From a virus: a stretch of 30,957 nt of DNA. Below the pieces are notes generated by a model, which was not told the origin of the DNA, searched no databases, and worked only from the letters and a program-made list of their open reading frames with translations. The stretch is taken from IMG/VR virus record IMGVR_UViG_3300002835_000738, positions 1-30,957 of that record; one strand, written 5' to 3'. Made by a program: the position numbers and the translations under genes. Shown here piece by piece: positions 9,301-30,633 of this stretch; position 1 is the stretch's first letter, and each line of letters opens with the position of its first letter.

Positions 9301-9525
9301 ATGAAAACATCAGAATTTAGAAACTTAATCCGCGAAGAAGTTAAAAAAACTTTAAACGAAGGTGGAACTGGTATAGCTGAAAATATGTGGGTAAAAGAGT
9401 TAGTAGGTAAGAAAATTACAAAAGCATTTGTTAAAACAAGTGGTCCAGATTTAATCATATGGTGTGAAGATGGGTCACAGTACACATTGAAAACTGTAGC
9501 AGGCTTGGTTAAGTGGGATAAATAA
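9301..9525 (+). CDS. Small protein with capsid-targeting-like N-terminal peptide
   Basis: 74 residues beginning MKTSEFRNLIREEVKKTLNE. This N-terminus is shared with genes at 11180 and 30173 and more loosely with 9628. It resembles the T4 capsid-targeting sequence of internal proteins (MKTYQEFIAE), which gp21 protease cuts after a [LI]-x-E site; here I-R-E at residues 10-12 would fit. The remainder (MWVKELVGKKITKAFVKTSGPDLI...) looks like a small beta domain ending GSQYTLKTVAGLVKWDK. The real function is unknown; a virion-packaged internal protein is my inference. It has its own late-type box. Confidence 0.7.
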   Translation: MKTSEFRNLIREEVKKTLNEGGTGIAENMWVKELVGKKITKAFVKTSGPDLIIWCEDGSQYTLKTVAGLVKWDK

Positions 9526-9627
9526 CTACCTATAATGAAATTAAACGAAGGTACATTTGAAGGTAATTCAATCGCTGTTTATAATGCCTAAAACGGCAGA
9601 AGTCATGATATAATAAAATAAAATACA

Positions 9628-9978
9628 ATGAATCCAAAAGAATTTAAAAGGTTGTTGAAAGAGTTTGCTCCTACTCAACAAATTACTGAAGCAGATATTC
9701 AGCCTACAGGACCTGATGGCGAAAAAATTACAGACCCAGTTATTATCAAAAATTTAAATCTGGCTATTAAGGCAGTTAATTCTGCTATTCGTCCTAAATT
9801 AATACAAATGATTGAAGATCCAGAAGCAGCAAAGGCTTTGAAATCTACCTCTCAAAGAGCAGCGGTTATAGCTGCTATGGCAATTGCATTTGGAATTTCA
9901 GAAAAAGAATTTTCTCAAATCATTGTTAAGATCAAGACATTACTTAAGAAGTCAGATGACACTGTAAGTGAAGAATAA
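9628..9978 (+). CDS. Small helical protein with capsid-targeting-like N-terminus
   Basis: 116 residues. It starts MNPKEFKRLLKEFAPTQQI, a divergent version of the MK-x-x-EF-x-x-[LI]IREE peptide in neighbouring genes, with L-K-E at residues 10-12 as a possible prohead-protease site. The rest is mostly helical (NLNLAIKAVNSAIRPKLIQM, AAVIAAMAIAFGISEKEFSQIIVKI), with an Ala/Ile-rich amphipathic segment near residues 75-100. No known domain is recognised. No exact late box precedes it, so it may be read from the promoter at 9277. A role as an internal or assembly protein is inferred only. Confidence 0.65.
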   Translation: MNPKEFKRLLKEFAPTQQITEADIQPTGPDGEKITDPVIIKNLNLAIKAVNSAIRPKLIQMIEDPEAAKALKSTSQRAAVIAAMAIAFGISEKEFSQIIVKIKTLLKKSDDTVSEE

Positions 9979-9987
9979 TACAATTAC

Positions 9988-10001
9988 ATATTTATATTAA
10001 A
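9988..10001 (+). promoter_or_regulatory. Late-promoter-like box ATATTTATATTAAA
   Basis: Exact 14-mer, 14 nt before the ATG at 10016, just after the preceding gene's stop. Confidence 0.62.
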
Positions 10002-10015
10002 TAAAACCATTAGTT

Positions 10016-10885
10016 ATGCCAACAGTTAACGATAACTATCCTAAAAAGGATAATGCAGAAATGTCGGATGCGCAGTTAAAAGAACTTGCCATTCAACAAA
10101 TGCAACGCCAAGAGGTTAAAAACTCTGGATTCCCAACAGAAATGATTTCATTACCGTCTCAAGGTAAAGTATATCCTGAGACAAGTCCTTTATCTTCAGG
10201 TAAGATAGAAATGAAATACATGACAGCTCGAGAAGAAGATATTCTTACTTCACAAAATTTAATTCGTCAAGGAATTGTATTAGAAAAGCTAATGCAATCA
10301 ATGATTGTATCTCCTATTAATTACAATGATTTAGTTATTGGAGATAAAAATGCTATTATGGTCGCTGCTCGTATTTTAGGATACGGTAAAGACTATTCTG
10401 CTTCTGTAGATTGTCCAAAATGTGAAGCTAGTAATCCTATTGAAATAGATTTAACTCAGTTACCTGAAAAGTCTATTCCTGAAGATGCTAAAATGATATC
10501 TCCAGGCGTATTTGAATTTACGTTACCTCAATCAAAACGAGTAATTCATTTTAAATTAATTAATACAGGTCTAGATAAGCAAATTACTAGAGATTTAGAA
10601 GCAACTAAAAAAGCTAATAAATCATCCACTGCAATTGACAGAGAATTGACTACTAGATTGAAAAATATCATAGTGTCAGTTGACGGCGAGACAGATAAAA
10701 AATTCATAAGCAATTTTGTTGATAATGAATTATTTGCAATGGATTCTAGATCATTTAGAACATATATGAAAGAAGTAGCACCTGACACGACATTTGCCGT
10801 TAATTTTGTATGCAGCGAATGCGACCACGAAGAGGAGGCGTTAGGGTTTTCAATTGATACTAACTTTTTTTGGCCTAAGTTCTAA
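10016..10885 (+). CDS. Baseplate hub assembly/tail assembly chaperone-like protein with zinc-ribbon cysteines
   Basis: 289 residues. The N-terminal part contains GFPTEMISLPSQGKVYP and KYMTAREEDILTSQNLIRQG, which I recognise from the T4 gp26/gp51-type hub assembly family found before the tape measure in many T4-like phages. Two cysteine pairs, CPKC (133-136) and CSEC (266-269), would form a four-Cys zinc ribbon. Position, two genes upstream of the tape measure, fits a tail assembly chaperone. The 3' end carries a seven-T run (10865-10871) where ribosomes could shift into the next open frame. Family naming is moderately sure; zinc binding is inferred from the cysteines. Confidence 0.75.
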   Translation: MPTVNDNYPKKDNAEMSDAQLKELAIQQMQRQEVKNSGFPTEMISLPSQGKVYPETSPLSSGKIEMKYMTAREEDILTSQNLIRQGIVLEKLMQSMIVSPINYNDLVIGDKNAIMVAARILGYGKDYSASVDCPKCEASNPIEIDLTQLPEKSIPEDAKMISPGVFEFTLPQSKRVIHFKLINTGLDKQITRDLEATKKANKSSTAIDRELTTRLKNIIVSVDGETDKKFISNFVDNELFAMDSRSFRTYMKEVAPDTTFAVNFVCSECDHEEEALGFSIDTNFFWPKF

Positions 10886-11099
10886 ACACAAACCTTTAAT
10901 TCATAGTCAGTTATTTGATATGGTTTATCATGGCCATGGATTTACCTGGTCTGAATTATATAATATGCCAGTTTGGCTTCGTAAATTTTATTATAAAAAG
11001 ATGGAAGAAGCAATGAGTAAACAAAAAGAAGCTCATACAAAAGCATCTAAAAAAACATCTAAACCTAAAATATCAAGACCATCAGTAGGACCTAAATAA
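10854..11099 (+). CDS. Frameshift extension of the tail assembly chaperone
   Basis: This frame is open from inside the preceding gene to 11099. The protein segment GLSSKHKPLIHSQLFDMVYH followed by GHGFTWSELYNMPVWLRKFYYKKM resembles short conserved proteins (xxYNMPxWLRxFY) encoded between the hub-assembly gene and the tape measure in T4-like phages, ending in a Lys/Ser-rich tail. The only starts are TTG at 10854 and an internal ATG at 10920. The conserved-looking HKPLIHSQLFD lies before that ATG, so translation by frameshift from the upstream gene is more likely than independent initiation. In-frame use probably begins near 10872. The gene's stop lies inside a terminator hairpin. Confidence 0.68.
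   Translation: MILTFFGLSSKHKPLIHSQLFDMVYHGHGFTWSELYNMPVWLRKFYYKKMEEAMSKQKEAHTKASKKTSKPKISRPSVGPK
10865..10871 (+). promoter_or_regulatory. Candidate ribosomal frameshift site (T7 run)
   Basis: In the upstream gene's frame the codons are AAC TTT TTT TGG, five codons before the stop at 10883. A +1 (or -2) slip on TTT TTT T moves into the frame that runs to 11099, giving ...NFF-GLSSKHKPL. The other shift (-1) would stop after two codons (TTG GCC TAA). A homopolymer slip site in a tail chaperone gene just before a tape measure gene parallels lambda G/GT-type frameshifting. Confidence 0.5.
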
Positions 11100-11111
11100 G
11101 GTCCTATTTTT
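11086..11111 (+). terminator. Intrinsic terminator overlapping stop codon
   Basis: TAGGACCT (11086-11093) pairs perfectly with AGGTCCTA (11099-11106) around AAATA, followed by TTTTT. The hairpin includes the last codons and TAA of the upstream frame, so terminating ribosomes could influence its folding. Confidence 0.88.
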
Positions 11112-11150
11112 GTATTCGTATGAAATTGATACCAACTGTTTATTAAACTG

Positions 11151-11164
11151 ATATTTATATTAAA
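11151..11164 (+). promoter_or_regulatory. Late-promoter-like box ATATTTATATTAAA before tape measure unit
   Basis: Exact 14-mer, 15 nt before the ATG at 11180 and about 40 nt after a strong terminator. The following genes to 19308 lie close together without further exact boxes, so this may drive the whole tape measure/baseplate unit. Confidence 0.65.
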
Positions 11165-11179
11165 TAAAGAGTAAATTAC

Positions 11180-11596
11180 ATGAAAACCTCTCAAATAAAA
11201 CAAATTATTAAAGAAGAAATAATATTAAATAAACTTAATGTTATTGACAGCTCTATTTCATCAATTTGTGAAGAATATATGCAAGTGTCAACTTTAAATG
11301 AAAGTATTTTAGGATCATTAATGGGTCTTTTTCTAGATTCTAAATACAGAAAAAAAGCTGAAGAGCTTAAAAAATCTCCAGAGTATAAAGATTTAATGCT
11401 TCAAATGAAAGTTTCAGCTGAATCACTTAATGCAGTAACTGAAAAATTAAAAAAAGCTATTGATGAAAAACAAGCAGCAATTGCAGCTGCTAAATCAGTA
11501 GGCATTAAACTTAAACCATATACAACAATTGATGATTTAATAGCACAGTTTCCTGGACATGCAAAATTATTAGCTAAATATAAACCTAATAAATAA
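11180..11596 (+). CDS. Small helical protein with capsid-targeting-like N-terminus
   Basis: 138 residues starting MKTSQIKQIIKEEIILNKLN, with the same N-terminal peptide type as the genes at 9301 and 30173; I-K-E at residues 10-12 would suit gp21-type cleavage. The body is helical and charged (YRKKAEELKKSPEYKDLMLQ; AVTEKLKKAIDEKQAAIAAA), and a short hydrophobic ESILGSLMGLFLDS segment sits near residues 42-55. It precedes the tape measure by 4 nt, so it is translated with it. Internal head protein or tape-measure partner are both possible; I cannot decide between them. Confidence 0.68.
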   Translation: MKTSQIKQIIKEEIILNKLNVIDSSISSICEEYMQVSTLNESILGSLMGLFLDSKYRKKAEELKKSPEYKDLMLQMKVSAESLNAVTEKLKKAIDEKQAAIAAAKSVGIKLKPYTTIDDLIAQFPGHAKLLAKYKPNK

Positions 11597-11600
11597 ATAA

Positions 11601-14153
11601 ATGGCTAAAGATTCTGATAAATTAATTGCGGACCAAGCAAAACAAATTAAAGCCTTAAAAGAAGCTGCTCGTAAAAAAGAAGCTAAAGCGAGTACTGAAA
11701 TGAAAGATCAAGTAGATTGGTCTCAACAGTTACTGGATATAGAATCTGAAAGAATTAAAGGATGGTCAAAGTTACGAGAGTCTCAAGAGTTGTCGGCAAT
11801 GGCAATGGAAGACCTCCGAGATACTACGAAACAAATGTCTGCCATAGACAGAAAAAATTTAATTACTAATACTAAACAAGAAAAAGCACTTCAAAAAAAT
11901 CTTAAAGCTCAAATTAAAATTTATGATTTAGAAAAAGAAGCTTTACCTCATAGAAAAAAATTATTAGAGTCTCAAGAAAAATTAAATAAACTACATGATA
12001 AATATAAAGAGTCAGTAGAAGAAAGTTTAGACTTTTTTGACGATTTTAATAGCAAAATAAAAAGTATTCCTATTGTAGGAGATTTTTTATCAAAGGCAAT
12101 TGGATTAGATAAAATAAAAGAAGAACTTACTGATAAATTTACAGGGTATTTAACAAACGCATTAGACCCTGCATCAGCTGCGCAGGCAGCGGCATCCGCA
12201 GAAGCAGTTGCCGGCTATGAAGCACAAATTGCAGCTCAAGGAGTATTAGCAGCTGAAACTGGAGTAGTAGCTGTAGAATCCGGAGTAATTGCAACAGAAA
12301 TAGGAGTTGCAGCAGCTGAGACAGTAGCTTTAACTGCAGGAACAGCAGCAGCATCTGTAGGAGCAATGGGATTTGCATCTGCAATGGGCGCAGCGGCAGT
12401 AGCGGCATGGGCAGCAATGTCACCAATGCTTCCTTTAATTGCTTTAGCTGCGGCATTGTTAGCAACAATAATGCTTATTAAAAAAGGATTAGATGTAGAT
12501 GAAGAAATATCACATCTAGCTAAAGGAATGGGCCAAACTAAGCACGAAGCTGAAGAAGCACATCATCAATTTGCAGAAATTGCAGCTGATACTGAAATAG
12601 TAGGAGCTAATATAGAATCAATAACTCAAGCCAATAAAGATTTAAATGCTATTTTAGGAACTAACGTTACAGCGTCTAAAGAAATGTTAGAAGCTCAAGT
12701 TCTTCTAACAAAACAATATGGATTGACAGGCGAAGAAGCAGCAGAGTTTCAAGCCGTATCAGCCGGCACTGGTAAAACAGTTAATCAAAATTTAGCGACA
12801 GTTCAAGCAATGGTCGAAGGTTATAATACCATGACCGGCGATTCTTTGAATTTTAAAGAGATATCAAAAGACATTGCTAAAACTTCTAAAGCTACTTTAG
12901 CTTCTTATAAAGGAAACGTTAAAGCTCTTACGCTAGCTGCTATTCAAGCTAAGAAAATGGGTATGTCTTTAGAAGATACTCAACATGTAGCTGATAATTT
13001 GCTAGATATTGAATCTTCAGTTGAGGCTGAAATGAAAGCCAATGTATTGACAGGTAAGCATATGAATATGAATAAAGCTCGTCAATTAGCATTAGAAGGC
13101 AAAACAGCAGAAGCTGCAGCAGAGGCTGTTTCTCAAGCAGGTTCGCTTTCTGAATTAAACGACATGAACATTATTCAACGTAAATCAATTGCAGATGCAG
13201 CGGGAGTTACTGTTGATCAGTTAATGAAATCGGCTGAATTACAAGAATATAGCAATGCATTAAATGGCGCAGAGATAACAGATATGAAAGATCTAACTGC
13301 TGAACAAATCCATCAGTTAGAAATAGCAGGGGCAATTGATAAGACAAAGGCAGATCAATTAATGAAAGAACAACAAATTGCTTCTACAAATGAAAAAATG
13401 GCTCATATAGGAGATAGGTTATCAGCAATTATGATGAAGATTGCTGATCCAATCGTAGATATGTTAGATCCATTAATGGAAATGGTAGATTTTGTATTTC
13501 CTTTACTTGGAGTAGCAATGGCTCCAATGATGTTCGGATTTAAAGTTGTAGGCATAACTGTAGGAGGTATAATAAAAGCAGTTAGTTATTTAATCGGAGT
13601 TATCGGCCGATTAGGTATAATGATTAATGAAGCTTTAGGAGATCCGTTAAAAGGAATAGTAGATTTTTTCAAAGATATCGGAAATTCTATATCAAACTTC
13701 TTTGGAGGAATATTTGATTATTTTTCAGAAAGAATAACTAATATGTTACCAGATTGGGCATTGAAGTTATTAGATATAGGACCTTCAAATAAAGAATCAG
13801 AAGCTTCGCATCAGAAAGTTGATGATGCTATGATAGCTCCAGATGGAGGATTAGTAGTATCAGGTCAAAAAGGATCGTTTCAATTAAATTCTCAAGATTC
13901 TGTAGTAGCTGGAACTAGTTTAGGAGAGCAAAAAGACGACGGACCAAGTGACTTTAGCAATTGGTGGGATTCAATGACAGGCGGAAATGACAATGCAGAA
14001 ATAGTTTCTTTATTAAGAGAATTAATCGCAAAAGTTGAACAACCAGTAATGGTTAATATTGGCGGCCGAGTAGTCGACGAAATGGAAAAACAAACTTCTT
14101 TAAGAAGAACGTATAATACCAAAATGGACAGCGGTTATGGCACGTTTGGATAA
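11601..14153 (+). CDS. Tail tape measure protein (gp29-like)
   Basis: 850 residues. Residues 1-150 are charged coiled coil. Residues about 188-270 are extremely Ala-rich and lead into a hydrophobic segment (PMLPLIALAAALLATIMLI, about 275-293). Long helical stretches follow to about 600, then a second hydrophobic region (FPLLGVAMAPMMFGFKVVGI and beyond). Near the end, IAPDGGLVVSGQKGSFQLN is a pattern I know from tape measure proteins of T4-like phages. Length, helicity and membrane-like segments fit a protein that sets tail length and is injected first. Position between the assembly chaperone and baseplate genes supports this. Repetitive Ala codons explain open antisense frames here. Confidence 0.88.
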   Translation: MAKDSDKLIADQAKQIKALKEAARKKEAKASTEMKDQVDWSQQLLDIESERIKGWSKLRESQELSAMAMEDLRDTTKQMSAIDRKNLITNTKQEKALQKNLKAQIKIYDLEKEALPHRKKLLESQEKLNKLHDKYKESVEESLDFFDDFNSKIKSIPIVGDFLSKAIGLDKIKEELTDKFTGYLTNALDPASAAQAAASAEAVAGYEAQIAAQGVLAAETGVVAVESGVIATEIGVAAAETVALTAGTAAASVGAMGFASAMGAAAVAAWAAMSPMLPLIALAAALLATIMLIKKGLDVDEEISHLAKGMGQTKHEAEEAHHQFAEIAADTEIVGANIESITQANKDLNAILGTNVTASKEMLEAQVLLTKQYGLTGEEAAEFQAVSAGTGKTVNQNLATVQAMVEGYNTMTGDSLNFKEISKDIAKTSKATLASYKGNVKALTLAAIQAKKMGMSLEDTQHVADNLLDIESSVEAEMKANVLTGKHMNMNKARQLALEGKTAEAAAEAVSQAGSLSELNDMNIIQRKSIADAAGVTVDQLMKSAELQEYSNALNGAEITDMKDLTAEQIHQLEIAGAIDKTKADQLMKEQQIASTNEKMAHIGDRLSAIMMKIADPIVDMLDPLMEMVDFVFPLLGVAMAPMMFGFKVVGITVGGIIKAVSYLIGVIGRLGIMINEALGDPLKGIVDFFKDIGNSISNFFGGIFDYFSERITNMLPDWALKLLDIGPSNKESEASHQKVDDAMIAPDGGLVVSGQKGSFQLNSQDSVVAGTSLGEQKDDGPSDFSNWWDSMTGGNDNAEIVSLLRELIAKVEQPVMVNIGGRVVDEMEKQTSLRRTYNTKMDSGYGTFG

Positions 14154-14163
14154 TTATTAGTAT

Positions 14164-16488: not shown

Positions 16489-16493
16489 AAATT

Positions 16494-16814
16494 ATGTCAA
16501 GATACGATAATTACACATTTACTCAAACACCTAAATTAGATGTTGAGAACAAACGAAGATATTACGATTCGTTAATAGATCCTGTAATCGAAAAAAGCGT
16601 TGATGATATTTATGTAGTTACGAGTGTCGGAGAACGTTTAGACCTATTAGCATGGAAATATTATCAAGATCCAGAATTATGGTGGATTATTTCTGCAGCG
16701 AACCCAGAATTACGAAAGGATTCCTTATATTTAGAACCTGGTATTCAAGTTCGTGTACCTAGAGATTATCAAGTAGTATTACAATTGTTTATAGATCAAA
16801 ATAGTTTTAGATAA
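16494..16814 (+). CDS. Baseplate wedge protein with LysM-like domain (gp53-like)
   Basis: 106 residues. After an N-terminal FTQTPKLDVENKRRYYDSLI segment comes a LysM-like fold: YVVTSVGERLDLLAWKYYQD, then ELWWIISAANPE, and ending LEPGIQVRVPRDY. This order (VxxGxRLDxLAxxYYxDPxLWWxIxxAN...PGxxLxIP) is the hallmark of T4 gp53-type wedge proteins and small LysM baseplate proteins that bind the tube or hub. The TAA stop overlaps the next ATG (TAATG), indicating translational coupling with the hub gene. Confidence 0.88.
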   Translation: MSRYDNYTFTQTPKLDVENKRRYYDSLIDPVIEKSVDDIYVVTSVGERLDLLAWKYYQDPELWWIISAANPELRKDSLYLEPGIQVRVPRDYQVVLQLFIDQNSFR

Positions 16815-20682: not shown

Positions 20683-20781
20683 TATATTTATATATGAAAA
20701 AGATCAGTTATAATATTATTCGCTTTGGTACAATTAATTTGTTTATTTACAATAGAACCGGAATTGGATCATACAATAGGT

Positions 20782-21108: not shown

Positions 21109-21171
21109 AGTTTTTAAAGAAATATTTGGTACCTACGAAAGGTTATCATATATTTAGTTATGTTAGGAGTT

Positions 21172-21249: not shown

Positions 21250-21262
21250 AAAAAAAAGAAAA

Positions 21263-22048: not shown

Positions 22049-22083
22049 AAAACAAGTAACTGAAAGGTTACGACAGGATAACT

Positions 22084-23247
22084 ATGGCAAAAAGTAAAAC
22101 AACAGTTGATGAAGGAGTAATACAAGATGATTTAGCTTCAGTATTAGCAGACAATCTCAATAAGAAATTTAAAAGCTCAAATTATAAAGTAGCTTATTTC
22201 TTAGAAGGTGATACAGACGCTCCCTCTGAAGTAAATGAATGGGTCTCAACCGGATCTACAATGTTAGATTTAGCAATTTCAAATCGACCTAACGGAGGAC
22301 TTCCAGTAGGACGTATTATTGAAATTACCGGTTTAGAAGCTTCAGGTAAATCATTATTAGCTGCTCACGCATTAGCTGACACTCAGAAAAAAGGAGGCTT
22401 GGCAGTGTATATTGACACTGAAAACGCAATCTCTAGAGAGTTTCTAGAAGCTATAGGAGTTAATCTTAAGGATATGTTATATGTCCCTTTAGAGACAATT
22501 GAAGACATTTTTGATGCTATGGATAGCATCGTAGAATCTGTTAGAAAGAACTCTAAATCAAGAATAGTTACTATAGTAGTAGATTCTGTTGCCGGCGCAT
22601 CAACTAAACAAGAGATGGCAGCTGATTATGATAAAGATGGTTGGGCCACTTCAAAGGCAATTATCTTATCAAAAGCAATGCGTAAAATTACTAATTTTAT
22701 TGGTAGAGAACGTATATGTTTGATATTCACTAATCAGTTACGTACTCGTTTAGGAGTTTCGTTTGGCGACCAATGGACAACATCAGGTGGTAAGGCAATC
22801 GCATTCCACTCGTCAGTTCGTCTTAGGTTAAAGTCAGTAGGACAAATTAAATTAGCAAAGTCTGCAGATAAACCAGAGGCAGTTGTAGGAATTACAACTC
22901 GAGCTCAGGTAGTTAAAAATCGTATGGGCCCGCCTTTACGTACTGTAGATTATGATATTTACTTTGATTCAGGTATTGACGACTTTGGTAGTTGGTTAAC
23001 TATGATGAAGAATTATAATTTAGTAACTCAAGCAGGTGCATGGTATACTTATACTAACACTGAGACAGGTGAAGTAGTTAAATTCCAATCTAAAGATTTC
23101 AAATCTAAGTTAATTGACGATCCAGAAATGAAAGCGCAGGTTTATAAAACAATTTGCGAAAAATATATTCTTAATTATAGAGCCGGTGATGACTTTGGTA
23201 TCGACGATATTGAAATCGAAACAGAGTTTGACGGAGAAGAATCATAA
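22084..23247 (+). CDS. uvsX: UvsX/RecA-like recombinase
   Basis: 387 residues. Walker A GLEASGKS at 83-90, Walker B IVTIVVDSVAG with D167, LIFTNQLRTRLGVSFGDQWT (the QxR region) and TSGGKAIAFHSSVRLRL (DNA-binding loop region) are the expected order for T4-type RecA family recombinases; T4 UvsX is 391 residues. The C-terminus is acidic (DDFGIDDIEIETEFDGEES), typical of RecA relatives. It would load on gp32-coated ssDNA for recombination-dependent replication. AGGA at 22075-22078 precedes the ATG by about 5 nt, one of the few SD-like sequences in the window. The exonuclease gene follows after 6 nt. Confidence 0.95.
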   Translation: MAKSKTTVDEGVIQDDLASVLADNLNKKFKSSNYKVAYFLEGDTDAPSEVNEWVSTGSTMLDLAISNRPNGGLPVGRIIEITGLEASGKSLLAAHALADTQKKGGLAVYIDTENAISREFLEAIGVNLKDMLYVPLETIEDIFDAMDSIVESVRKNSKSRIVTIVVDSVAGASTKQEMAADYDKDGWATSKAIILSKAMRKITNFIGRERICLIFTNQLRTRLGVSFGDQWTTSGGKAIAFHSSVRLRLKSVGQIKLAKSADKPEAVVGITTRAQVVKNRMGPPLRTVDYDIYFDSGIDDFGSWLTMMKNYNLVTQAGAWYTYTNTETGEVVKFQSKDFKSKLIDDPEMKAQVYKTICEKYILNYRAGDDFGIDDIEIETEFDGEES

Positions 23248-23253
23248 ACAAAT

Positions 23254-24309
23254 ATGAAAGGTTACGCAGAATTATTAAGACAAGTTCGCGAAGACCACGA
23301 AAAACAGAATTCAGGTTTAGAGAAAGACAGTAAAGTGTTGATTATCGACGGCCTGAATTCGTTTATTCGGGTTTTTAGTGCAGTCCCTCTCGTTAATGAC
23401 GATGGCGAACATATTGGAGGTTATATAGGATTTATGCGATCAATCGCAGCTGTTATTAGACAGTTCAAACCTACAAGATGTATTATTGTATTTGACGGTA
23501 AAGGAGGCTCGGCCCGAAGAAAGAAAATGCACTCTGGATATAAAGAAGGTAGATCAATGTCTACTAGATTTAATCGTAGAGGAGATGTAGGTGAGCAATC
23601 TGTAGAAGAAGAAATTGCATCAATGCGATTGCAAATGAGTAAATTGTCAGAATATTTAGAATGTCTGCCAGTTACTCTTATATCAATTGATAATATCGAA
23701 GCTGATGATACTATTGCATATTTAACGACAGAAGTATTTCGTCCTATAGGAAGTGAAGTCATTATAATGTCCGACGATAAAGATTTTATCCAGTTAGTAG
23801 ATAGCAAGACTTCAGTATGGAGACCAGTAGAAAAGAAATATTATACACCTAAAGAAGTTAATGATAGATTCGGAGTACCTTCTCATAACTTTATTCATTA
23901 TAAAGTATTTATGGGAGATGGCTCTGATAACATCAAAGGCATTAATGGAGTAGGCATAAAAACACTTCAATCTAAATTTCCAATGCTATTAGAAGAAAAG
24001 ACTATTACGCTAGAAGAGCTATTGGATTTTTGTAAAGCTAAACAAGACGATCATAAAATATATAGAACAGTTGTTGATAATGAAGTTGCAATGCGACTCA
24101 ATTGGCAATTGATGTCATTAGAAGATTTGGATATAGCCAGTAATTTTAAATTAATGATTACAGATATGGCAGCAAGACCAATTCCAAAATTAGACACATT
24201 TACTTTTAAAAAGATGTTTATGTCAGATAAAGCTTATACAGCAATACCAAATGTAGACACTTGGTTAGCAAATAGTTTTAGCACACTTGCAGCATTTAGT
24301 CAAAAATAA
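23254..24309 (+). CDS. 5'-3' exonuclease / flap endonuclease (T4 RNase H-like)
   Basis: 351 residues. The acidic active site of the FEN/5'-nuclease family is present: IIDGLNSF (D32), IVFDGKG (D81), NIEADD (E149, D151, D152), SDDKDF (D174, D175, D177) and GDGSDNIKG (D222, D225), followed by a helix-hairpin-helix GVGIKTLQSKF. K90-K91 and a Lys/Arg-rich arch (MHSGYKEGRSMSTRFNRRG) lie between. The enzyme would remove RNA primers and flaps from lagging-strand fragments. It lies between UvsX and the helicase, with a 6-nt gap from UvsX, so it is co-expressed with both. All key residues appear intact. Confidence 0.93.
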   Translation: MKGYAELLRQVREDHEKQNSGLEKDSKVLIIDGLNSFIRVFSAVPLVNDDGEHIGGYIGFMRSIAAVIRQFKPTRCIIVFDGKGGSARRKKMHSGYKEGRSMSTRFNRRGDVGEQSVEEEIASMRLQMSKLSEYLECLPVTLISIDNIEADDTIAYLTTEVFRPIGSEVIIMSDDKDFIQLVDSKTSVWRPVEKKYYTPKEVNDRFGVPSHNFIHYKVFMGDGSDNIKGINGVGIKTLQSKFPMLLEEKTITLEELLDFCKAKQDDHKIYRTVVDNEVAMRLNWQLMSLEDLDIASNFKLMITDMAARPIPKLDTFTFKKMFMSDKAYTAIPNVDTWLANSFSTLAAFSQK

Positions 24310-24345
24310 TTTTTAAATTACAAATGAAAAATATATATTTAACGT

Positions 24346-25707
24346 ATGTCAGATAAATTATCAAATTTCGGTTACGGATTTCAAATTAAGATTATATCTT
24401 CTTTGTTAACTGATAAGCCATTTTTACAACAAGTTTCAGATATTCTATTGCCTGAATTCTTTGAATCAGAAGCAAATCAATGGATAGTTGAAACTACGGT
24501 AAAGTATTTCAATGAATATAAGACAGCTCCAACGTTAGATGTATTTAAAATTAAAGTTCAAGATGTTGATAGAGAAGTAGTTAAGACTTCAATTATTGAA
24601 TCTCTTAAAGACTCTTATCGATATTTAGAATCTGAAGATTTAGATTTCGTAAAAGAACAAACAGTAGACTTTTGTAAAAATCAATGCATTAAAAGAGCTA
24701 TTTTAGATTCAGTTGAACTTCTTCGCAGAGGTCAATATGATTCTATTAAAGCTACTATTGATGCGGCTATGAAAGCAGGAGCAGATAAAGAAGTTGGTCA
24801 TGAATATAATGAGTCAGTTGAAGCTCGATACTTAGACAATATAAGATCCACTATTCAAACTCCATGGCCAATTATTAACGATTTGTCAGACGGTGGGTTT
24901 GGTAAAGGAGAGTTAGTTGTCTTTGTAGCACCTGCTGGTATTGGTAAATCTTGGGGTCTTATTAACGTAGGAGCTCATGCAGTTAAGCAAGGATTAAATG
25001 TAGTTCATTATACATTAGAGTTAAATGAAGGTTATGTAGGTCAGCGTTATGATGCTGTATTAACAGGTATAGCAGCACAGAATTTAAAATATAATCAAGA
25101 CGAGATTGCTAATATGGTATCTAAATTAAAAGGTAATTTAGTTATTAAATATTGGCCAACTAAAACAGCATCGTGCTCGACTATTAGATCTCATATAGAG
25201 AAAATGATTATGGTAGGTAAAAAACCAGATTTACTCATTGTCGATTATGCAGATTTATTAAGAGGAGCAGTAGCTAGAAAAGAAATGCGTCATGAGTTAG
25301 AATCTATCTATGAAGACTTGCGTGGTATAGCAGGAGAGTATGAAGTTCCTTTATACACAGCATCGCAAGCAAATAGAAGTGCATTGGAGCAAGATGTAAT
25401 TGAAGCTGACAAAATATCAGAGTCATATTCTAAAGTAATGATTGCAGACTTTGTATTATCACTATCTAGAAAGGTAACAGATAAGATAGCAGGCACTGGT
25501 AGATGGCATATTATCAAGAATCGTTTCGGACCTGACGGACTTACACTTCCAAGTAAAATGAATATGAGTAATGGACAAATTCATATCTATGAAGAAACCT
25601 CCGTACAAGGAAAAGATACTAATAAACAAATGCAAACAGGTGAAGAATTATTAAGGAAAAGTTTATTACAAAAATATAAAGAAGTCCAGGGAGATTCTTT
25701 AGGGTAA
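24346..25707 (+). CDS. DnaB-type replicative helicase (gp41-like)
   Basis: 453 residues. The N-terminal 150 residues are helical (NFGYGFQIKIISSLLTDKPF, typical of phage DnaB-like proteins). The RecA-type core has Walker A APAGIGKS (195-202), HYTLEL, Walker B PDLLIVDYADLL (D300) and TASQANRSALEQ, with a WHIIKNRFGPDG arginine-finger region. It would unwind the fork 5'-3' as a hexamer. No primase is fused, so primase must lie elsewhere. A linker at its 3' end holds an isolated GGAGGA before the reductase gene. T4 gp41 is 475 residues, so length is consistent. Confidence 0.93.
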   Translation: MSDKLSNFGYGFQIKIISSLLTDKPFLQQVSDILLPEFFESEANQWIVETTVKYFNEYKTAPTLDVFKIKVQDVDREVVKTSIIESLKDSYRYLESEDLDFVKEQTVDFCKNQCIKRAILDSVELLRRGQYDSIKATIDAAMKAGADKEVGHEYNESVEARYLDNIRSTIQTPWPIINDLSDGGFGKGELVVFVAPAGIGKSWGLINVGAHAVKQGLNVVHYTLELNEGYVGQRYDAVLTGIAAQNLKYNQDEIANMVSKLKGNLVIKYWPTKTASCSTIRSHIEKMIMVGKKPDLLIVDYADLLRGAVARKEMRHELESIYEDLRGIAGEYEVPLYTASQANRSALEQDVIEADKISESYSKVMIADFVLSLSRKVTDKIAGTGRWHIIKNRFGPDGLTLPSKMNMSNGQIHIYEETSVQGKDTNKQMQTGEELLRKSLLQKYKEVQGDSLG

Positions 25708-25760
25708 CCAATAGTTATATAACCCGGAGGAAAGAGTCTAACTAAAACAACAAATCAATT
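25708..25760 (+). promoter_or_regulatory. Leader with hairpin and isolated strong Shine-Dalgarno-like GGAGGA
   Basis: GGAGG is present at 25726-25730, within CCCGGAGGAAAG, but it lies about 30 nt before the nrdJ ATG at 25761, too far for normal initiation, and no other start codon is suitably placed. Just upstream, GGGTAAC can pair with GTTA and ACCC around CAATA with an internal bulge. It may be a structured leader or a leftover initiation site. Confidence 0.35.
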
Positions 25761-27617
25761 ATGGAATTATCAAACGAAATTTTATCGGACATTACCGTCC
25801 ATATGAAGTATGCACGCTTTCGCCCAGAGCTGCAGCGTCGAGAAACTTGGGAAGAGCTAGTTACCCGTAACAAGGAAATGCACATCAAGAAGTATCCGCA
25901 TTTAGAGGCAGAGATTGAAGAGACGTATAAATTCGTTTATGATAAAAAAATATTACCTTCAATGCGCAGTTTGCAATTTGGTGGTAAGCCTATTGAAATT
26001 TCTCCAAACAGAATTTACAATTGTGCTTATTTACCTATTGACGATTGGAGAGCATTTGGAGAAGTAATGTTTTTATTACTAGGTGGCACAGGAGTAGGGT
26101 ATTCAGTACAAAAACATCACGTAGATGCATTACCTGAAATTAGAAAACCAGATGCAAAAAGGAATAGAAGATTTTTAATAGGAGACTCTATTGAAGGTTG
26201 GGCAGATGCAATTAAGATGTTAATGAAATCTTATTTTCATGGAGGAGCATCTATTAACTTTGACTTTTCAGACATTCGTCAAAAAGGAGCAATGTTAGTA
26301 ACTTCAGGTGGTAAAGCACCCGGACCTCAACCATTAAAAGAGTGTTTAGTAAAAATTCAAGGTATCTTAGATACTAAAATAGATAATGAAAAATTATCAC
26401 CAATTGAAGTGCATGATATTGTGTGTCATATTGCAGACGCAGTATTAGCAGGTGGTATTCGTCGTGCAGCATTGATTTCTTTATTCAGCGCAGACGATAA
26501 TGAAATGATATCTTGCAAATCAGGACCATGGTGGGAGTTAAACCCGCAAAGAGGTAGAGCAAATAACTCAGCAGTTCTTTTAAGAAACAAAGTAACTCAA
26601 GAGTTCTTTATGTCTTTATGGGAAAAGATCAAAGCTTCAGGAGCAGGAGAGCCAGGTATTTATTTATCAAACGATAAAGATTGGGGAACTAATCCATGTT
26701 GTGAAATTGCACTTCGTCCATTCCAATTTTGTAATTTATGTGAGGTAAATGTTTCAGACATTGAGTCTCAAGAAGATTTAGATGCTCGTGTTAAAGCAGC
26801 AGCATTTGTAGGAACACTTCAAGCAGGTTATACCAATTTCCATTATTTACGTCCTGTATGGCAACGCACTACAGAGAAAGACGCTTTAATTGGTGTAGGT
26901 ATGACAGGTATTGGTTCAGGTGTTGCTCAAAAGTATGACTTAAAACGTGCAGCTGAATTAGTTAAAGAAGTAAATACAGCTACTGCAAAACAAATTGGAA
27001 TCAATGCATCAGCAAGATGCTCAACCATCAAACCTTCAGGAACATCATCATTGGTATTAGGAACTTCATCGGGCATTCACGCTAGACACAATGACTATTA
27101 TATTCGTCGTGTGCGTGTAGGTAAGAATGAAGCTATTTATACTTATTTAATGATTAATCATCCAGAGTTAATTGAAGATGATTATTTCCGTCCACACGAT
27201 ACGGCAGTAATTTCAGTACCTCAAAAATCTCCAGCAGAGTCTATTTTAAGAACAGAGTCTGCATTGGATTTATTAGAGAGAGTAAAATGGTTTTACACTA
27301 ACTGGGTTAAACCAGGACATCGCAATGGACAAAATACTCATAACATTTCAGCTACAGTATCTATTAAAGAAGATGAATGGGAAGTAGTTGGTAATTGGAT
27401 GTGGGAGAACAGAAAGTTCTATAACGGATTATCAGTTCTACCTTACGACGGTGGTACATATATTCAAGCTCCTTTCGAAGATTGCACTAAAGAAAAATAT
27501 GAAGAAATGATGAAACATCTATCTAATATTAATTTAGCTCATGTAGTTGAAATAGCTGACAATACTAATTTGCAAGATCAAGCTGCTTGTGCAGGTGGTG
27601 CTTGTGAAATTCAATAA
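25761..27617 (+). CDS. nrdJ: Class II adenosylcobalamin-dependent ribonucleotide reductase
   Basis: 618 residues. Hallmarks of the monomeric B12-dependent (RTPR-like) class are visible: ILPSMRSLQFGG, NRIYNCAYLP (C88), LAGGIRRAA, the NPCCEI loop (thiyl Cys C313, E315), C324 eleven residues later as in the C408/C419 pair of Lactobacillus RTPR, STIKPSGTSSLVLGTSSGIH, and C-terminal shuttle cysteines C610-x4-C615 (CAGGACEIQ). The usual motif is NPCGEI; here an extra Cys replaces the Gly. It is shorter than RTPR (about 740 residues). The enzyme makes deoxynucleotides for phage replication and needs cobalamin from the host, unlike T4 NrdAB. A dUTPase gene follows nearby. Confidence 0.92.
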   Translation: MELSNEILSDITVHMKYARFRPELQRRETWEELVTRNKEMHIKKYPHLEAEIEETYKFVYDKKILPSMRSLQFGGKPIEISPNRIYNCAYLPIDDWRAFGEVMFLLLGGTGVGYSVQKHHVDALPEIRKPDAKRNRRFLIGDSIEGWADAIKMLMKSYFHGGASINFDFSDIRQKGAMLVTSGGKAPGPQPLKECLVKIQGILDTKIDNEKLSPIEVHDIVCHIADAVLAGGIRRAALISLFSADDNEMISCKSGPWWELNPQRGRANNSAVLLRNKVTQEFFMSLWEKIKASGAGEPGIYLSNDKDWGTNPCCEIALRPFQFCNLCEVNVSDIESQEDLDARVKAAAFVGTLQAGYTNFHYLRPVWQRTTEKDALIGVGMTGIGSGVAQKYDLKRAAELVKEVNTATAKQIGINASARCSTIKPSGTSSLVLGTSSGIHARHNDYYIRRVRVGKNEAIYTYLMINHPELIEDDYFRPHDTAVISVPQKSPAESILRTESALDLLERVKWFYTNWVKPGHRNGQNTHNISATVSIKEDEWEVVGNWMWENRKFYNGLSVLPYDGGTYIQAPFEDCTKEKYEEMMKHLSNINLAHVVEIADNTNLQDQAACAGGACEIQ

Positions 27618-27622
27618 CAGTA

Positions 27623-27838
27623 GTGAGAAACGACGATTGGATTTATAAACTAGATTTAGAGGAGCGGTTTAATAAGCCGCTCTTTTATTTTGAAGATGGA
27701 TTAGTAGTATTTACTCCTATGCATCATATTACACGAGGTACTTGTTGTGGTAATAAGTGTCGTCATTGCCCGTACGAACCTTTACATATTAAAGGTAATT
27801 CTCAATTACAAGATATTTATATTAAAGATACTAAATAA
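27623..27838 (+). CDS. DUF5522-like small cysteine-rich protein
   Basis: 71 residues from a GTG start 5 nt after the reductase stop. The segment LVVFTPMHHITRGTCCGNKC followed by RHCPY matches DUF5522, short proteins common in Bacteroidota with the signature LVVFTxxYHLxRGxCCGxxCRHCPY. The cysteines (C-C-x3-C-x2-C) suggest metal binding; the biochemical role is unknown to me. Two oddities: a terminator-like hairpin lies inside its coding sequence (27658-27690), and its last codons (DIYIKDTK) are made of an exact late-promoter-like box for the following dUTPase. Its presence is my best host clue. Confidence 0.78.
   Translation: MRNDDWIYKLDLEERFNKPLFYFEDGLVVFTPMHHITRGTCCGNKCRHCPYEPLHIKGNSQLQDIYIKDTK
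27658..27690 (+). terminator. Intragenic terminator-like hairpin
   Basis: GAGCGGTTT (27662-27670) pairs with AAGCCGCTC (27674-27682), one G-U, loop AAT, followed by TTTTATTTT. The flanking bases 27658-27661 can extend pairing into the T tract. It lies about 35 nt inside the DUF5522-like gene, so transcription of that gene from upstream would be attenuated unless ribosomes disrupt it. Confidence 0.6.
27813..27826 (+). promoter_or_regulatory. Late-promoter-like box inside upstream gene, ahead of dUTPase
   Basis: Exact ATATTTATATTAAA within the last codons of the DUF5522-like gene, 25 nt before the dUTPase ATG at 27852. Confidence 0.6.
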
Positions 27839-27851
27839 TAAAATTTTAAGT

Positions 27852-28274
27852 ATGAAAATTAAAGTTAAAAAGCTTCATCCGAAAGCCATTATACCCGCTT
27901 ATGCGAAGCAAGGCGACGCTGGGTTAGATATGACAGCAATACAGCTAGTTAAAACCGAAATGTACTATGAGTACTTAACAGGTATTGCAATAGAAATTCC
28001 AGAAGGATATGTAGGATTGATGTTTCCTAGATCATCAATTTCAAAAACTAAACAAATTTTATCTAATCATGTAGGAGTTATTGACTCTGGGTTTAGAGGT
28101 GAAATTCGTTTTAGATTTAAGAAGTTAGCTTGGGACAATGGAGACCTTTATGATGTAGGCGATAAAATAGGTCAGCTAGTTATTGTGCCTATTCCAACTA
28201 TTGAATTAGTTGAAGTAGATGAACTATCAGATTCAGAAAGAGGAGAAGGTGGATTTGGTTCTACTGGAAATTAA
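27852..28274 (+). CDS. dut: dUTPase
   Basis: 140 residues from the ATG at 27852. The frame is open upstream to 27747, but that part overlaps the previous gene in another frame and lies before the promoter box, and family motif 1 sits at the normal distance from 27852. All five trimeric dUTPase motifs are present: QGDAGLDM (20-27), PRSSI (59-63), GVIDSGFRGEI (75-85), GDKIGQLVI (103-111) and the P-loop-like RGEGGFGSTG (130-139). It hydrolyses dUTP to dUMP and pyrophosphate, keeping uracil out of phage DNA and feeding thymidylate synthesis. It works with the ribonucleotide reductase upstream. Nothing is missing. Confidence 0.96.
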   Translation: MKIKVKKLHPKAIIPAYAKQGDAGLDMTAIQLVKTEMYYEYLTGIAIEIPEGYVGLMFPRSSISKTKQILSNHVGVIDSGFRGEIRFRFKKLAWDNGDLYDVGDKIGQLVIVPIPTIELVEVDELSDSERGEGGFGSTGN

Positions 28275-28283
28275 TTAAATTAG

Positions 28284-28297
28284 ATATTTATATTAAA
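28284..28297 (+). promoter_or_regulatory. Late-promoter-like box ATATTTATATTAAA
   Basis: Exact 14-mer, 9 nt before the ATG at 28307 and 10 nt after the dUTPase stop. Confidence 0.62.
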
Positions 28298-28306
28298 GGT
28301 ACATAA

Positions 28307-28678
28307 ATGAAAGATTTAGCTTCAATATTATTACATTCACAAACACAAACTCATATATATCATTTACGAGTAAAAGGTAGCGGCTCATACGCAGCTCATA
28401 AAGCACTTCAAAAGTATTATGAAAGTATAGACGGATTAGTCGACATGTTAGTAGAATCGTATCAAGGTAAAAATGGATTAGTCTATTTTGATCAAGTTGA
28501 TGAAATTGATAACAATGCTTCTATAGAAAATATTTTAAAATATTTTGATAAATTAATTTCTATTATAGATAAACTTCGTAAAGGAAAAGAATTAGAAGAT
28601 TCGTTTATTCAAAATCAAATAGACGCGGTTGTTGATTTATTATATTCTACAAAATATAAATTAGAAAATTTAGAATAA
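28307..28678 (+). CDS. DUF5856-like (ferritin/Dps-fold) protein
   Basis: 123 residues, all helical. LLHSQTQTHIYHLRVKG, then YAAHKALQKYYESIDGLVDM and LVESYQGKNGLV, gives the H-x3-H...AxHxALxxYYExIxxLxDxLxExYQG pattern of DUF5856, a phage family I place in the ferritin-like/Dps fold. In Dps proteins similar His and acidic residues bind iron; whether they do here is unproven. It has its own late-type box and its TAA overlaps the next ATG (TAATG), so it is translationally coupled to the putative nuclease gene. It could be an injected or packaged DNA-protection protein, which is speculation. Confidence 0.75.
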   Translation: MKDLASILLHSQTQTHIYHLRVKGSGSYAAHKALQKYYESIDGLVDMLVESYQGKNGLVYFDQVDEIDNNASIENILKYFDKLISIIDKLRKGKELEDSFIQNQIDAVVDLLYSTKYKLENLE

Positions 28679-30060
28679 TGGCAATTAACTTAGATAATTT
28701 ACTACAAGAAGATAATAAAGATTTAGTAAATACAGAAATTATTACTGAAACAACTTCAACACCAGAAGTTACAATTCCTGATTTTGAATCTATCGTAACT
28801 GAATGGAGTTATCGTTGTGATAAAGGATATCCAGATATGAATGATCGATCTGATATGTTGCATTTGCAAACTATATTAGAAGAAAAAGGAATTGAATCTC
28901 CTTTTGAAAGATTAACAGAAGCGCCTGATTTTATATCTAATATTGATTTACTTAAAAAAGAAGGGTTTGATAAATTATACAACAGCCTGCCATCCGATGA
29001 TAAAAAAACACAATTTATTAAATTTATAGATACCATACCAAGCGCTTTACGAAAAGAGTTTATTAAAACTGCAAAAGGACTATCTTCGAGTGAAATTAAA
29101 GAATTTGCAAAGTTTTTTAAATCGTTAGATTCAGTAGAGCAGTTAAATAACGTTTCATATAAACCATATAAAAAATTATGGGATACTGCCGTTGGTCAAG
29201 CAATTGGAAATGGAGAATTATTTATATCATTCGCAGTTGATAAAGCCGTAGTGCAAGGATCGACTGAGTCATTTGATATTGACGATCAAGGAAAGCATTA
29301 TGAAGTAAAATCTTTATGGGTATATGATAATCGCGAGAATAAATATAAATATGGTCAAATTAGACCAGGCGCGGAAGGTAAAGTATCTAAGTATCCATTT
29401 ACAAAACAACTAATGGAATTTTATTCATTAGTACGTAAACTACAAGATCCTAAAATTAAAAGTAATGTTATGTCATTAGGGTCAAAAGAAGCTATGAATA
29501 AAATTTATAGCATCATTAATGAAATATCAACTATTAAGCCAAAAGGAGGCGATGTATTAGAGTCGCCAGGCGATATTCCTACTAGTATGATGAATAACGT
29601 TTATAATAGTGCAATTGAATTGCATAAAATAAAAACGGTACCTTTGAAAAAAGACATTACAACTTCTAGAATAGCAGTTAAAGGATCAAAAGCAGATTCT
29701 TCATATTGGATTAGCCCAGAAGATGCTGACGAAATTACAAAGTCTGCCGGCTCAAGTAAAGAAGTTAAAATTAAAGTAGGTAGCGCAGTTTCTGACGAAT
29801 CAAAAGAAGGAAAAATTATATTAACTGACTTATTTAATCATCCTTTCGTAACCAATCCAAAAATATTTACTAACTCATTATCAGCTATTAAAGACACATT
29901 TTTTGGCGGAAAATCAGGATTAGTATATTTTTATCAAGAAGTTACTTATGTATCTAAAGATATGTCTGAGTTTGCTACGGTAGAGTCTTCTCAAGACGGA
30001 TATCGTTTTGGATTAAAATCTAGAAATAAAGGAAAGGCGTATATTGAAGACCAAAGATAA
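28678..30060 (+). CDS. Putative PD-(D/E)XK nuclease-like protein
   Basis: 460 residues with no family name I can assert. Residues about 175-215 contain GNGELFISFAVDKAVVQGST then SFDIDDQGKHYEVKSLWVY. The arrangement helix-E-...-D-x(n)-[E]VK fits a PD-(D/E)XK site, with E181, an Asp in FDID, and the E-V-K triad. Similar GxGE...D..YEVK arrangements occur in hypothetical proteins of marine phages. The N-terminal 150 residues are helical, acidic and interrupted by EWSYRCDKGYPDMNDRSDM; the C-terminus ends in a beta-rich KSGLVYFYQEVTYVSKDM segment. It is coupled to the upstream ferritin-like gene. A nuclease or a packaged DNA-binding virion protein are both possible. Confidence 0.58.
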   Translation: MAINLDNLLQEDNKDLVNTEIITETTSTPEVTIPDFESIVTEWSYRCDKGYPDMNDRSDMLHLQTILEEKGIESPFERLTEAPDFISNIDLLKKEGFDKLYNSLPSDDKKTQFIKFIDTIPSALRKEFIKTAKGLSSSEIKEFAKFFKSLDSVEQLNNVSYKPYKKLWDTAVGQAIGNGELFISFAVDKAVVQGSTESFDIDDQGKHYEVKSLWVYDNRENKYKYGQIRPGAEGKVSKYPFTKQLMEFYSLVRKLQDPKIKSNVMSLGSKEAMNKIYSIINEISTIKPKGGDVLESPGDIPTSMMNNVYNSAIELHKIKTVPLKKDITTSRIAVKGSKADSSYWISPEDADEITKSAGSSKEVKIKVGSAVSDESKEGKIILTDLFNHPFVTNPKIFTNSLSAIKDTFFGGKSGLVYFYQEVTYVSKDMSEFATVESSQDGYRFGLKSRNKGKAYIEDQR

Positions 30061-30139
30061 ATTTTAAGATACTCCAATTTGGAGTATTCTACTATTAATA
30101 TTAAAGATTTGGTTTCTTCAAAAGAATTATCATAATAAC
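30061..30139 (+). repeat. Duplicated intergenic cassette, copy A
   Basis: It contains, in order: a perfect hairpin ATACTCCA-ATT-TGGAGTAT (30069-30087), TCTACT, a late-box variant CTATTAATATTAAA (30092-30105), GATTTGG, TTTCTTCAAAAGAA (30113-30126) and a CATATTTA-type box. Copy B at 30641-30720 has the same order and near-identical sequence. The hairpin lacks a strong T tract, so it may be a processing or stability element rather than a terminator. Confidence 0.75.
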
Positions 30140-30153
30140 ATATTTATTTAAAA
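30140..30153 (+). promoter_or_regulatory. Late-box variant ATATTTATTTAAAA
   Basis: Differs from the exact 14-mer only in the second half; ends 19 nt before the ATG at 30173. It follows the TTTCTTCAAAAGAA element as at the other two sites. Confidence 0.45.
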
Positions 30154-30172
30154 TAAAAAAAACTATCATAAT

Positions 30173-30610
30173 ATGAAAATACAAGAATTTCGTAAATTAA
30201 TACGTGAAGAGATTAAAGCAGTAATGAAAGAAAGCTTATCAAAAAAATCTTTAAAAGAAGTTAAGACAGTTAATTCAACTGCTGACTTTGAAGAATATGA
30301 AGATTTTGAAGTTAGCAAAGCTTTAAATATACAAGGAGATAATTCAATAGATTTTTATTTAAAAGGTGTTGAAGATAAATGGGAAGACGGAAACGAAGGT
30401 CAATTAGGAGCAATTAAAGATGCTGGATATACACTTGCTTTACTAGTAAAGGTGGAATTTGAAGGTTTAGGCCCGCGATTTTCAGGAATTGAAGTTTACA
30501 AAGTAAATGGACAGCCTTATGTAATCGTTTCAGAAGTTGAAATTGAATCTGCTTCATTATTCAAAGCATCTGACTTACCTAAAGTATTAAAAGCGTTAGG
30601 AGTTAAGTAA
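30173..30610 (+). CDS. Small acidic protein with capsid-targeting-like N-terminus
   Basis: 145 residues beginning MKIQEFRKLIREEIKAVMKE, the clearest match to the N-terminus of the gene at 9301, twenty kilobases away; I-R-E at residues 10-12 would be a gp21-type site. A Lys-rich linker (SLSKKSLKEVKT) is followed by an acidic alpha/beta domain (TADFEEYEDFEVSKALNI; DFYLKGVEDKWEDGNEG; LLVKVEFEGLGPRFSGIEVY), which suggests a cleavable tag plus a separate folded domain. No family known to me. The TAA stop overlaps the ATG of a truncated remnant ORF (30610-30633). It lies between the two copies of the duplicated cassette. Confidence 0.72.
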   Translation: MKIQEFRKLIREEIKAVMKESLSKKSLKEVKTVNSTADFEEYEDFEVSKALNIQGDNSIDFYLKGVEDKWEDGNEGQLGAIKDAGYTLALLVKVEFEGLGPRFSGIEVYKVNGQPYVIVSEVEIESASLFKASDLPKVLKALGVK

Positions 30611-30633
30611 TGAAAGCTTCTGAATTAATATAA
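30610..30633 (+). pseudogene. Remnant of a capsid-targeting-tagged gene (MKASELI then stop)
   Basis: The ATG overlaps the previous stop (TAATG). It encodes only MKASELI before TAA, which matches the first residues of the recurring MKxSE-type N-terminal peptide seen at 9301 and 11180. It lies immediately before duplicated cassette B. I read it as a leftover of a deleted or recombined gene copy; at this length coincidence is possible. Confidence 0.35.

Follow-up and report, generated by a model that had tools for sequence, protein, structure and literature searches.

Why should several small phage genes begin with the same short peptide and continue into unrelated proteins? The question is raised by the virus record IMGVR_UViG_3300002835_000738, a stretch of 30,957 bases (the window) that was treated as a genome fragment and whose genes are named here by their start positions in it. 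By its gene content, the source phage is a T4-related myovirus. A first-pass annotation had proposed that genes 9301, 9628, 11180 and 30173 share a capsid-targeting tag like that of the T4 internal head proteins. We consider it likely that such genes encode late cargo that docks in the prohead core, is cleaved by the prohead protease and is then injected, with modular leaders and bodies that are in some cases chained. Under this scheme, the cargo genes would be expressed late, and an N-terminal leader (in the type that we call class A, a 20-residue amphipathic stretch) would dock each protein into the prohead core. A gp21-type S77 prohead protease would cut after the [LI]-x-E with which the leader ends, and the freed body would remain in the head with the DNA and then be delivered into the host. 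Leaders and bodies would be swapped as modules, and one leader would bring in several chained bodies. In the sequences we observed the leader, the site at its end, leader-body exchange at that site, its depletion in class A bodies, the protease and its capsid site in relatives, and late-type promoters; from these we infer docking, actual cleavage, packaging, injection and a function in the host. The leader-bearing phages appear to be an uncultured aquatic group related to T4, in which the label apparently loads proteins into the head for delivery.

All four open reading frames (ORFs) exist as annotated, N-termini included, and each has [LI]-x-E at residues 10-12. The shared peptide with differing bodies held for 9301, 11180 and 30173; the leader of 9628 is another one. 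An all-against-all comparison of N-termini, which had been suggested as a check and was run on the 33 window ORFs of at least 60 amino acids (aa), gave a single cluster consisting of 9301, 11180 and 30173. Class A ORFs were picked by a regular expression on residues 1-13 from 376 records (the window and further loci, some overlapping one another; L and G handles below denote loci and records). This yielded 192 distinct complete ORFs with the consensus MKxSEFRKLIREEVRKVLxE, whose bodies fall into 121 families (blastp, E ≤ 1e-4), so that the idea of a portable N-terminal signal on unrelated bodies is upheld at the sequence level. Outside the regular expression, [LIV] occupies position 18 in 167 and E position 20 in 172 of the 190 ORFs that align without a shift. 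Many class A ORFs were drawn from a DNA pattern scan (at least 118 stretches) that also fixes part of residue 14, and residues 15-20 are therefore the independent ones. Reversed leaders stayed below the threshold of a position-specific scoring matrix (PSSM) throughout the 12 genomes or records tested. At this threshold the window yields 9301 and 30173; 11180 falls short, as its residues 15-20 differ. When families are compared, agreement at codon positions 1, 2 and 3 is 0.68, 0.80 and 0.59 in the leader and 0.28, 0.29 and 0.33 in body codons 22-30. On this measure the leader is kept as protein and common by descent, and the bodies are not. Two stretches, bases 110000-159999 of Flavobacterium phage immuto and the initial 50 kb of Rhodothermus phage RM378, contained no leader above the thresholds, whether of class A or of the class D described below. 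A tblastn search of INPHARED with the leader gave one match (LR756508, E 9), which failed to score as a leader. In L308:1341-2171, a class A-like leader (IKLSQFKSLIREEIQSVLRE) lies in the middle of a 276-aa ORF and not at its start. The window features of this type are listed below, with a slash marking the predicted cut.

9301..9525, + strand: class A cargo gene, 74 aa; PSSM 55.3; close relatives L002:3608 and L292:472
9301..9360, + strand: class A leader of 9301, predicted cut LNE-20/G, from the conservation profile
30173..30610, + strand: class A cargo gene, 145 aa; PSSM 52.7
30173..30232, + strand: class A leader of 30173, predicted cut MKE-20/S; another LKE ends at residue 29
11180..11596, + strand: cargo gene, 138 aa, between the hub and the tape-measure region; leaderless syntenic relative at 36273-36488 of Microcystis phage Mel-JY01
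11180..11302, + strand: class A-type helix and spacer of 11180, predicted cut LNE-41/S; [LI]xE in one column, 13 of 13

The end of the leader is sharply marked. Across class A families, residue 20 has an information content of 3.75 bits, residue 21 has 0.91 and residues 22-30 have at most 0.55. The pattern [LIVMF]18-x-E20 is present in 109 of 121 family representatives versus 37 of 1003 untagged ORFs (at least 100 aa, same loci), which bears out a T4-type [LI]xE as the leader's last element; of the 110 families with E20, 91 have L or I at P3. Among the 12 families without [LIVMF]18-x-E20, the site ends at residue 21, 22 or 23 in six and at 41 in one; the others show none nearby. In the 11180 family the distance from helix to site varies, and [LI]xE stands in one alignment column in 13 of 13 members, a set that we chose and that is not exhaustive. 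The relative in Mel-JY01 is a profile match at E 0.004, the best among 622 ORFs. The 9628 body is preceded by LSE, LNE, ITE, LQE, LHE, LKE or ISE. Cleavage had been placed at residues 10-12 by the first-pass annotation. We rejected this position as the main cut, given conservation that continues to E20, the six of 12 exceptions with a site ending at 21-23, and the later site that is in register with the body in the 11180 family; it is also unlikely because the 11180 and 9628 bodies keep the site at their junctions. The likely cuts are predicted after E20 (9301 and 30173), E21 (9628), E41 (11180) and E81 (28678, a further gene described below).

Leaders other than class A are also in use. Gene 9628 carries the class B leader, MNPKEFKRLLKEFAPxQQ[IL]xE.

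9628..9978, + strand: class B cargo gene, 116 aa, with a body that recurs behind class A leaders and within a longer ORF
9628..9690, + strand: class B leader of 9628, predicted cut ITE-21/A

In relatives, the 9628 body stands behind a class A or class B leader or within a 181-aa ORF. The class B leader is also on an unrelated body (L091:4543), where its last three residues are RKE and not [LIVMF]xE. The short class D leader, MIKLKDLLKE and variants, was found by a mechanical regular expression in 68 ORFs of 49 families, a set that contains some false members; families 13, 16, 27, 32 and 43 were dropped as false before annotation, and L266:3265 is a false member that was taken as the source of a DNA polymerase A match. 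A leader of yet another type, MNLQENYRRLFKG, is present in L064 and L072 and, altered, in L066. Bodies that align from their first residue with untagged ORFs have a site at most 4 residues away in 29 of 34 cases behind another leader. Where bodies align inside ORFs at a position beyond 45, a site lies within 4 residues in 6 of 6 cases, with a value of 0.27 at random positions. Leaderless relatives that begin at the predicted junction were found at L185:8341, L193:11196 and Mel-JY01 36273. Further leaderless candidates were set aside: L337:6331 (own short leader), L071:34 (contig start), L360:452 (possibly an internal start) and L288:7675 (repeat protein). Two side observations concern class D. 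In L378 (LR756508, a 484-kb uncultured phage), positions 23968-24402 encode a class D-type leader, MVRLYRILKE, on a body that is ADP-ribosyltransferase (ART)-like by eye, approximately 1.4 kb upstream of a tube gene homologue. In the cultured phage Mel-JY01, three related genes at 60276-60926, 60923-61105 and 62056-62718 (L240:12277-14719) start with MIKLKSLLQE, MIKLKSLLKE and MIKLMSLVTE; they are ART-like by eye only, and the one that was scanned gave no Pfam match.

Some genes look like cargo polyproteins with tandem predicted cut sites. A module that starts with MSDID forms a tagged protein by itself in L032 and elsewhere; in all five of the distinct contexts where it is internal, a site stands exactly before it. 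For 15 modules (15 of 16 seeds were used), a site lies at most 5 residues from the junction in 26 of 30 distinct non-seed contexts, where the module follows another leader or lies within a chain, versus 0.15-0.43 per module in the control, and in 40 of 45 when the seeds' own contexts are counted in. Junction boundaries from raw BLAST alignments were dropped (kept as examples only), as the alignments often ran through the site. The 464-aa, five-module protein L195:11808-13202 has eight [LIVMF]xE sites past its leader, arranged in four pairs with a spacing of exactly five residues (96/101, 169/174, 242/247 and 321/326); four such pairs were reached in 0 of 20,000 permutations. Its fourth module recurs in L090:6007 after VVNE, and its last module is a single tagged protein in L295:1949. 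In a structure model of L038:693 (predicted local distance difference test score (pLDDT) 71.5, predicted template modelling score 0.30), the junctions at 104, 188 and 272 fall in stretches of pLDDT below 50, and that at 365 lies three residues from one; extra sites at 100, 121, 179, 228, 258, 262 and 391 were not read as junctions. Fold matches of this model (best Z 7.1 over 66 residues) were below the level that we trust. A Pfam scan (E ≤ 0.01) of two chains, L195:11808 and L038:693, returned no family of any kind. We lean slightly towards a modular delivery system in which the prohead protease would double as a polyprotein processor, with few interchangeable leaders, a large pool of swappable effectors loaded singly or in chains of up to five modules joined by [LI]xE linkers, and delivery in a fixed ratio.

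The timing of expression was approached through promoter elements. TATTTAT[AT] occurs at most 80 bases upstream of 79 of 86 tube, 52 of 62 sheath and 43 of 50 hub genes. The corresponding counts are far lower at 0 of 66 (uvsX), 0 of 57 (RNase H), 1 of 52 (helicase) and 6 of 64 (gp32-like); for RNR they are 11 of 31 and for the capsid gene 0 of 15. Among class A genes 85 of 192 have the element upstream, among class D genes 20 of 68, and among other ORFs (at least 150 aa, late genes included) 146 of 721. In the window, TATTTATA occurs on the + strand at 8690, 9278, 9989, 11152 and 28285. Copies of this type number 15 on the + strand versus 3 on the - strand, and shuffles give 8.8 for both strands. 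The element lies 27 bases before the hub gene and 35 before the tube gene, and 9301, 11180 and 30173 have it in like positions:

9278..9285, + strand: TATTTATA, late-promoter-like element, 23 bases before 9301
11152..11159, + strand: TATTTATA, 28 bases before 11180
28285..28292, + strand: TATTTATA, 22 bases before gene 28307, upstream of 28678
30141..30148, + strand: TATTTATT, 32 bases before 30173

Genes 9628 and 28678 lack their own promoter element; transcription may reach them by read-through from upstream. The sequence TATTTATA(TTAAA) is the probable late promoter of this phage group; we take TATTTATA to be the mirror of T4's TATAAATA. The T4-type TATAAATA itself was rejected as the late promoter, being upstream of 5 of 192 class A genes versus 58 of 192 for TATTTATA. 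That 9301, 11180 and 30173 carry the element of the tail genes speaks for late head cargo.

The required enzyme was sought by profile search. The window has a T4-type gene set (tail sheath 6141, tube 8725, baseplate hub 10016, gp32-like 21263) and a RecA-type recombinase at 22084, named UvsX here. Recognised head genes are absent from it, and neither the S77 protease nor Gp23 was found there. By tube protein, its nearest phage-collection record is Mel-JY01 (70%), followed by immuto (54%) and RM378 (46%), the last of which has been named the sole isolate of the Far-T4-like viruses (PMC7198788). Of 18 records, 11 matched PF03420, and every one of the 7 that reach 100 kb was among them; a second set, 12 records chosen because they carried a leader or a 9628-type body, gave 8 matches. 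Class A leaders are present in 9 of the 18, and the protease in four of those (G001, G002, G007 and G013). Leader-bearing relatives thus have the gp21-type protease that the annotation had called for; the window, a fragment, gave no match to it. For the G001 enzyme, the T4 prohead protease structure 5jbl is a match at E 2.6e-17. Gp23 was matched in 13 of 19 records, and [VI]xE/[AS] stands in one column at about residue 60 in 13 of 13 capsid proteins, with ISE/A as the site in Mel-JY01; the T4 capsid propeptide has 65 residues (PMC5694885, PMC9026906), and the gp21 motif is L/I-x-E (PMC9026906). Two further window genes were noted. Positions 121-1443 encode a tail fibre with a long run of GxxGxxIQG-type repeats, the C-terminal part of which matches fibre and baseplate families. 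Among the fibre genes, positions 2564-4279 encode a protein of 571 aa; its C-terminal half is a match (E 6e-49) to a PHROG of phage glucosyltransferases.

For class A bodies there was no convincing family match: 14 Pfam families were hit by one member each (best E 2.5e-5), and the three PHROGs that were matched have no annotation. Behind the sister leader, class D, the sequences show ART-type bodies in L232:7925, L284:3018 and L184:4592; in G006, the first of these lies two ORFs downstream of the protease. Class D leaders also precede a kinase of the zeta-toxin type (L351:9632) and leucine-rich repeats (L309:3102), and an Alt-like PHROG was matched at 3.8e-12 by one protein of the class D set. 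PADLOC, run on the class D set only, gave three models, of which RTasPolA was taken to arise from the DNA polymerase false positive. Sequence searches of the PDB returned nothing usable for L232:7925 (E ≤ 0.01) or a Mel-JY01 class D protein (E ≤ 1). Single phages can carry many such genes. In G018 (148.6 kb), a PSSM score of at least 14 picks out 10 class A genes, and the class D regular expression another 7. An island of 11.2 kb in G002 (L195:4566-15732) contains 14 genes with leaders of two classes, among them the five-module 464-aa chain. G001 has 7 class A matches, G007 has 6, and Mel-JY01 has three class D genes.

Gene 28678, which the first-pass annotation had overlooked, also belongs to the leader-bearing set by its sequence.

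28678..30060, + strand: 460-aa protein with a leader domain of approximately 80 residues followed by a nuclease-like body
28678..28920, + strand: leader domain of 28678 (EWSYRCDKGYP type), predicted cut LTE-81/A in a disordered linker at residues 81-87

The domain is present in 21 ORFs. In L005, whose UvsX is 99% identical to that of the window, the leader is kept and the body after LTE/A is much diverged. In a structure model (pLDDT 83), residues 81-87 are disordered and coincide with the predicted junction. Across 19 aligned body sequences, D200 and K211 are invariant and E209 nearly so, which would fit the D...ExK residues of a PD-(D/E)XK nuclease. The body matched no Pfam family, and Foldseek gave nothing at E ≤ 0.001. 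Weak fold matches, the best VIA rows, were Cas12a (Z 4.7), HhaI (Z 4.3, root-mean-square deviation 3.7, 126 aligned) and PvuII (Z 3.1). The body is therefore at most a PD-(D/E)XK candidate, nuclease-like with weak structural support from the model. Directly upstream, 28307-28678 encodes a small protein that matches the PHROG 'starvation-inducible transcriptional regulator' (E 4e-19) and is presumably Dps-like.

Exposure of the bodies to the protease was gauged by how often they contain the site. In class A bodies, [LI]xE was observed 82 times with 124.6 expected, a ratio of 0.66 (95% interval 0.49-0.80); in 1174 length-matched untagged ORFs the ratio is 1.17 (1.12-1.23). Control patterns in class A bodies are without depletion (Ex[LI] 1.15, [LI]E 1.12, [LI]xD 1.26, [LI]xK 1.15, AxE 1.26), and the intervals for FxE (0.94) and [LI]xxE (0.87) include 1. 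A role as core or scaffold during assembly, with cleavage and loss of the tagged proteins at maturation instead of injection, is improbable. Genes next to the protease do carry leader-like ends, such as VRKALTE/S in G002, and in T4, gp21 cuts the core proteins, which are for the most part cleared from the head (PMC9026906). The avoidance of further [LI]xE is nevertheless unlike proteins meant for fragmentation, and the bodies vary widely between phages and in class D include ART- and zeta-type enzymes. We give a similarly low chance to the view that the leader stays on and, as a docking helix, fastens small accessory proteins to the prohead core, the shell or the tail. Such a helix would suit a class A leader that is amphipathic and strongly conserved as protein, and cleavage is predicted only. 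The conserved E20 with a collapse at residue 21, sites in register with the bodies while spacers vary, sites between chain modules and the avoidance in class A bodies all speak against it. That the leader is a duplicated gene start, merely the best-conserved part of diverged paralogues, is hardly credible. The third-position similarity of leaders, 0.59 versus 0.33 in bodies, does indicate a common source for the leaders, but the bodies show no blastp similarity across the 121 families, body codons 22-30 have the low agreement given above at all three positions, and the same bodies are found with other leaders.

Several findings weigh against cleaved and injected head cargo, which we still favor. 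VxE is not depleted in class A bodies (1.05), though V is common at the capsid site. Class D bodies, tested after removal of families 13, 16, 27, 32, 37, 38, 42 and 43, show no [LI]xE depletion (0.97, 0.67-1.24), a result that does not suit a uniform picture, though chained bodies would raise the value. The T4 internal proteins are basic, as a trait and not by definition; here the bodies are not, with 59 of 121 class A bodies net positive. The protease was seen in only 4 of the 9 class A records, the other five being fragments of 31-81 kb, and was missing from 4 of the 12 further records: G019 (102 kb, picked for its 9628-type body) and three others, 47-54 kb in length. Six S77-bearing records and Mel-JY01 lack class A, which makes it lineage-specific. 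With its leaderless relative in Mel-JY01, at least the 11180 protein can manage without this leader.

If head delivery is true, the 20-residue leader and [LI]xE junction would serve as a simple finder of head-delivered proteins in uncultured phages. A large pool of small phage genes without a family would become testable candidates for host takeover or counter-defence, because matches of class A bodies to known families are few and in no case convincing. Capsid-protease-cut cargo polyproteins would be a further way to load several effectors together.

Among known systems, a literature search, which included terms in PMC4360716 and had most subscription journals outside its range, found no Far-T4 leader family of this kind and no cargo polyprotein cut by a prohead protease. 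The polyvalent proteins (PMC5512222) are alike in having several effector modules per chain, predicted co-delivery with DNA and proteolytic separation; they are released by embedded peptidase domains, whereas the small modules described here would be parted by prohead-protease motifs. The ejection proteins of SPN3US and phiKZ (PMC5694885) likewise have N-terminal propeptides that are cut after x-x-E by a distant gp21 relative, and include two paralogues with an identical N-terminus, but their propeptides mostly exceed 100 residues and the motif is A-x-E or S/A-x-E. The T4 internal proteins with their capsid targeting sequence (PMC3012670, PMC9026906) share a short N-terminal leader, diverse bodies, L/I-x-E at the leader end, a gp21-type protease and ART among the cargo types. 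The class A leader has 20 residues and that of T4 has 10; by eye only, the class D leader has the same length and site position as the T4 tag, and the class A leader is double that length. The present set also differs in having several leader classes, 121 families of class A bodies, chained bodies and bodies that are not basic. The genes are not filed as T4 internal proteins because bodies and leader differ and packaging is predicted only. In anatomy, the system thus resembles the T4 internal-protein system, with a longer leader, several leader classes, a far larger set of bodies and chained cargo as its apparently new features.

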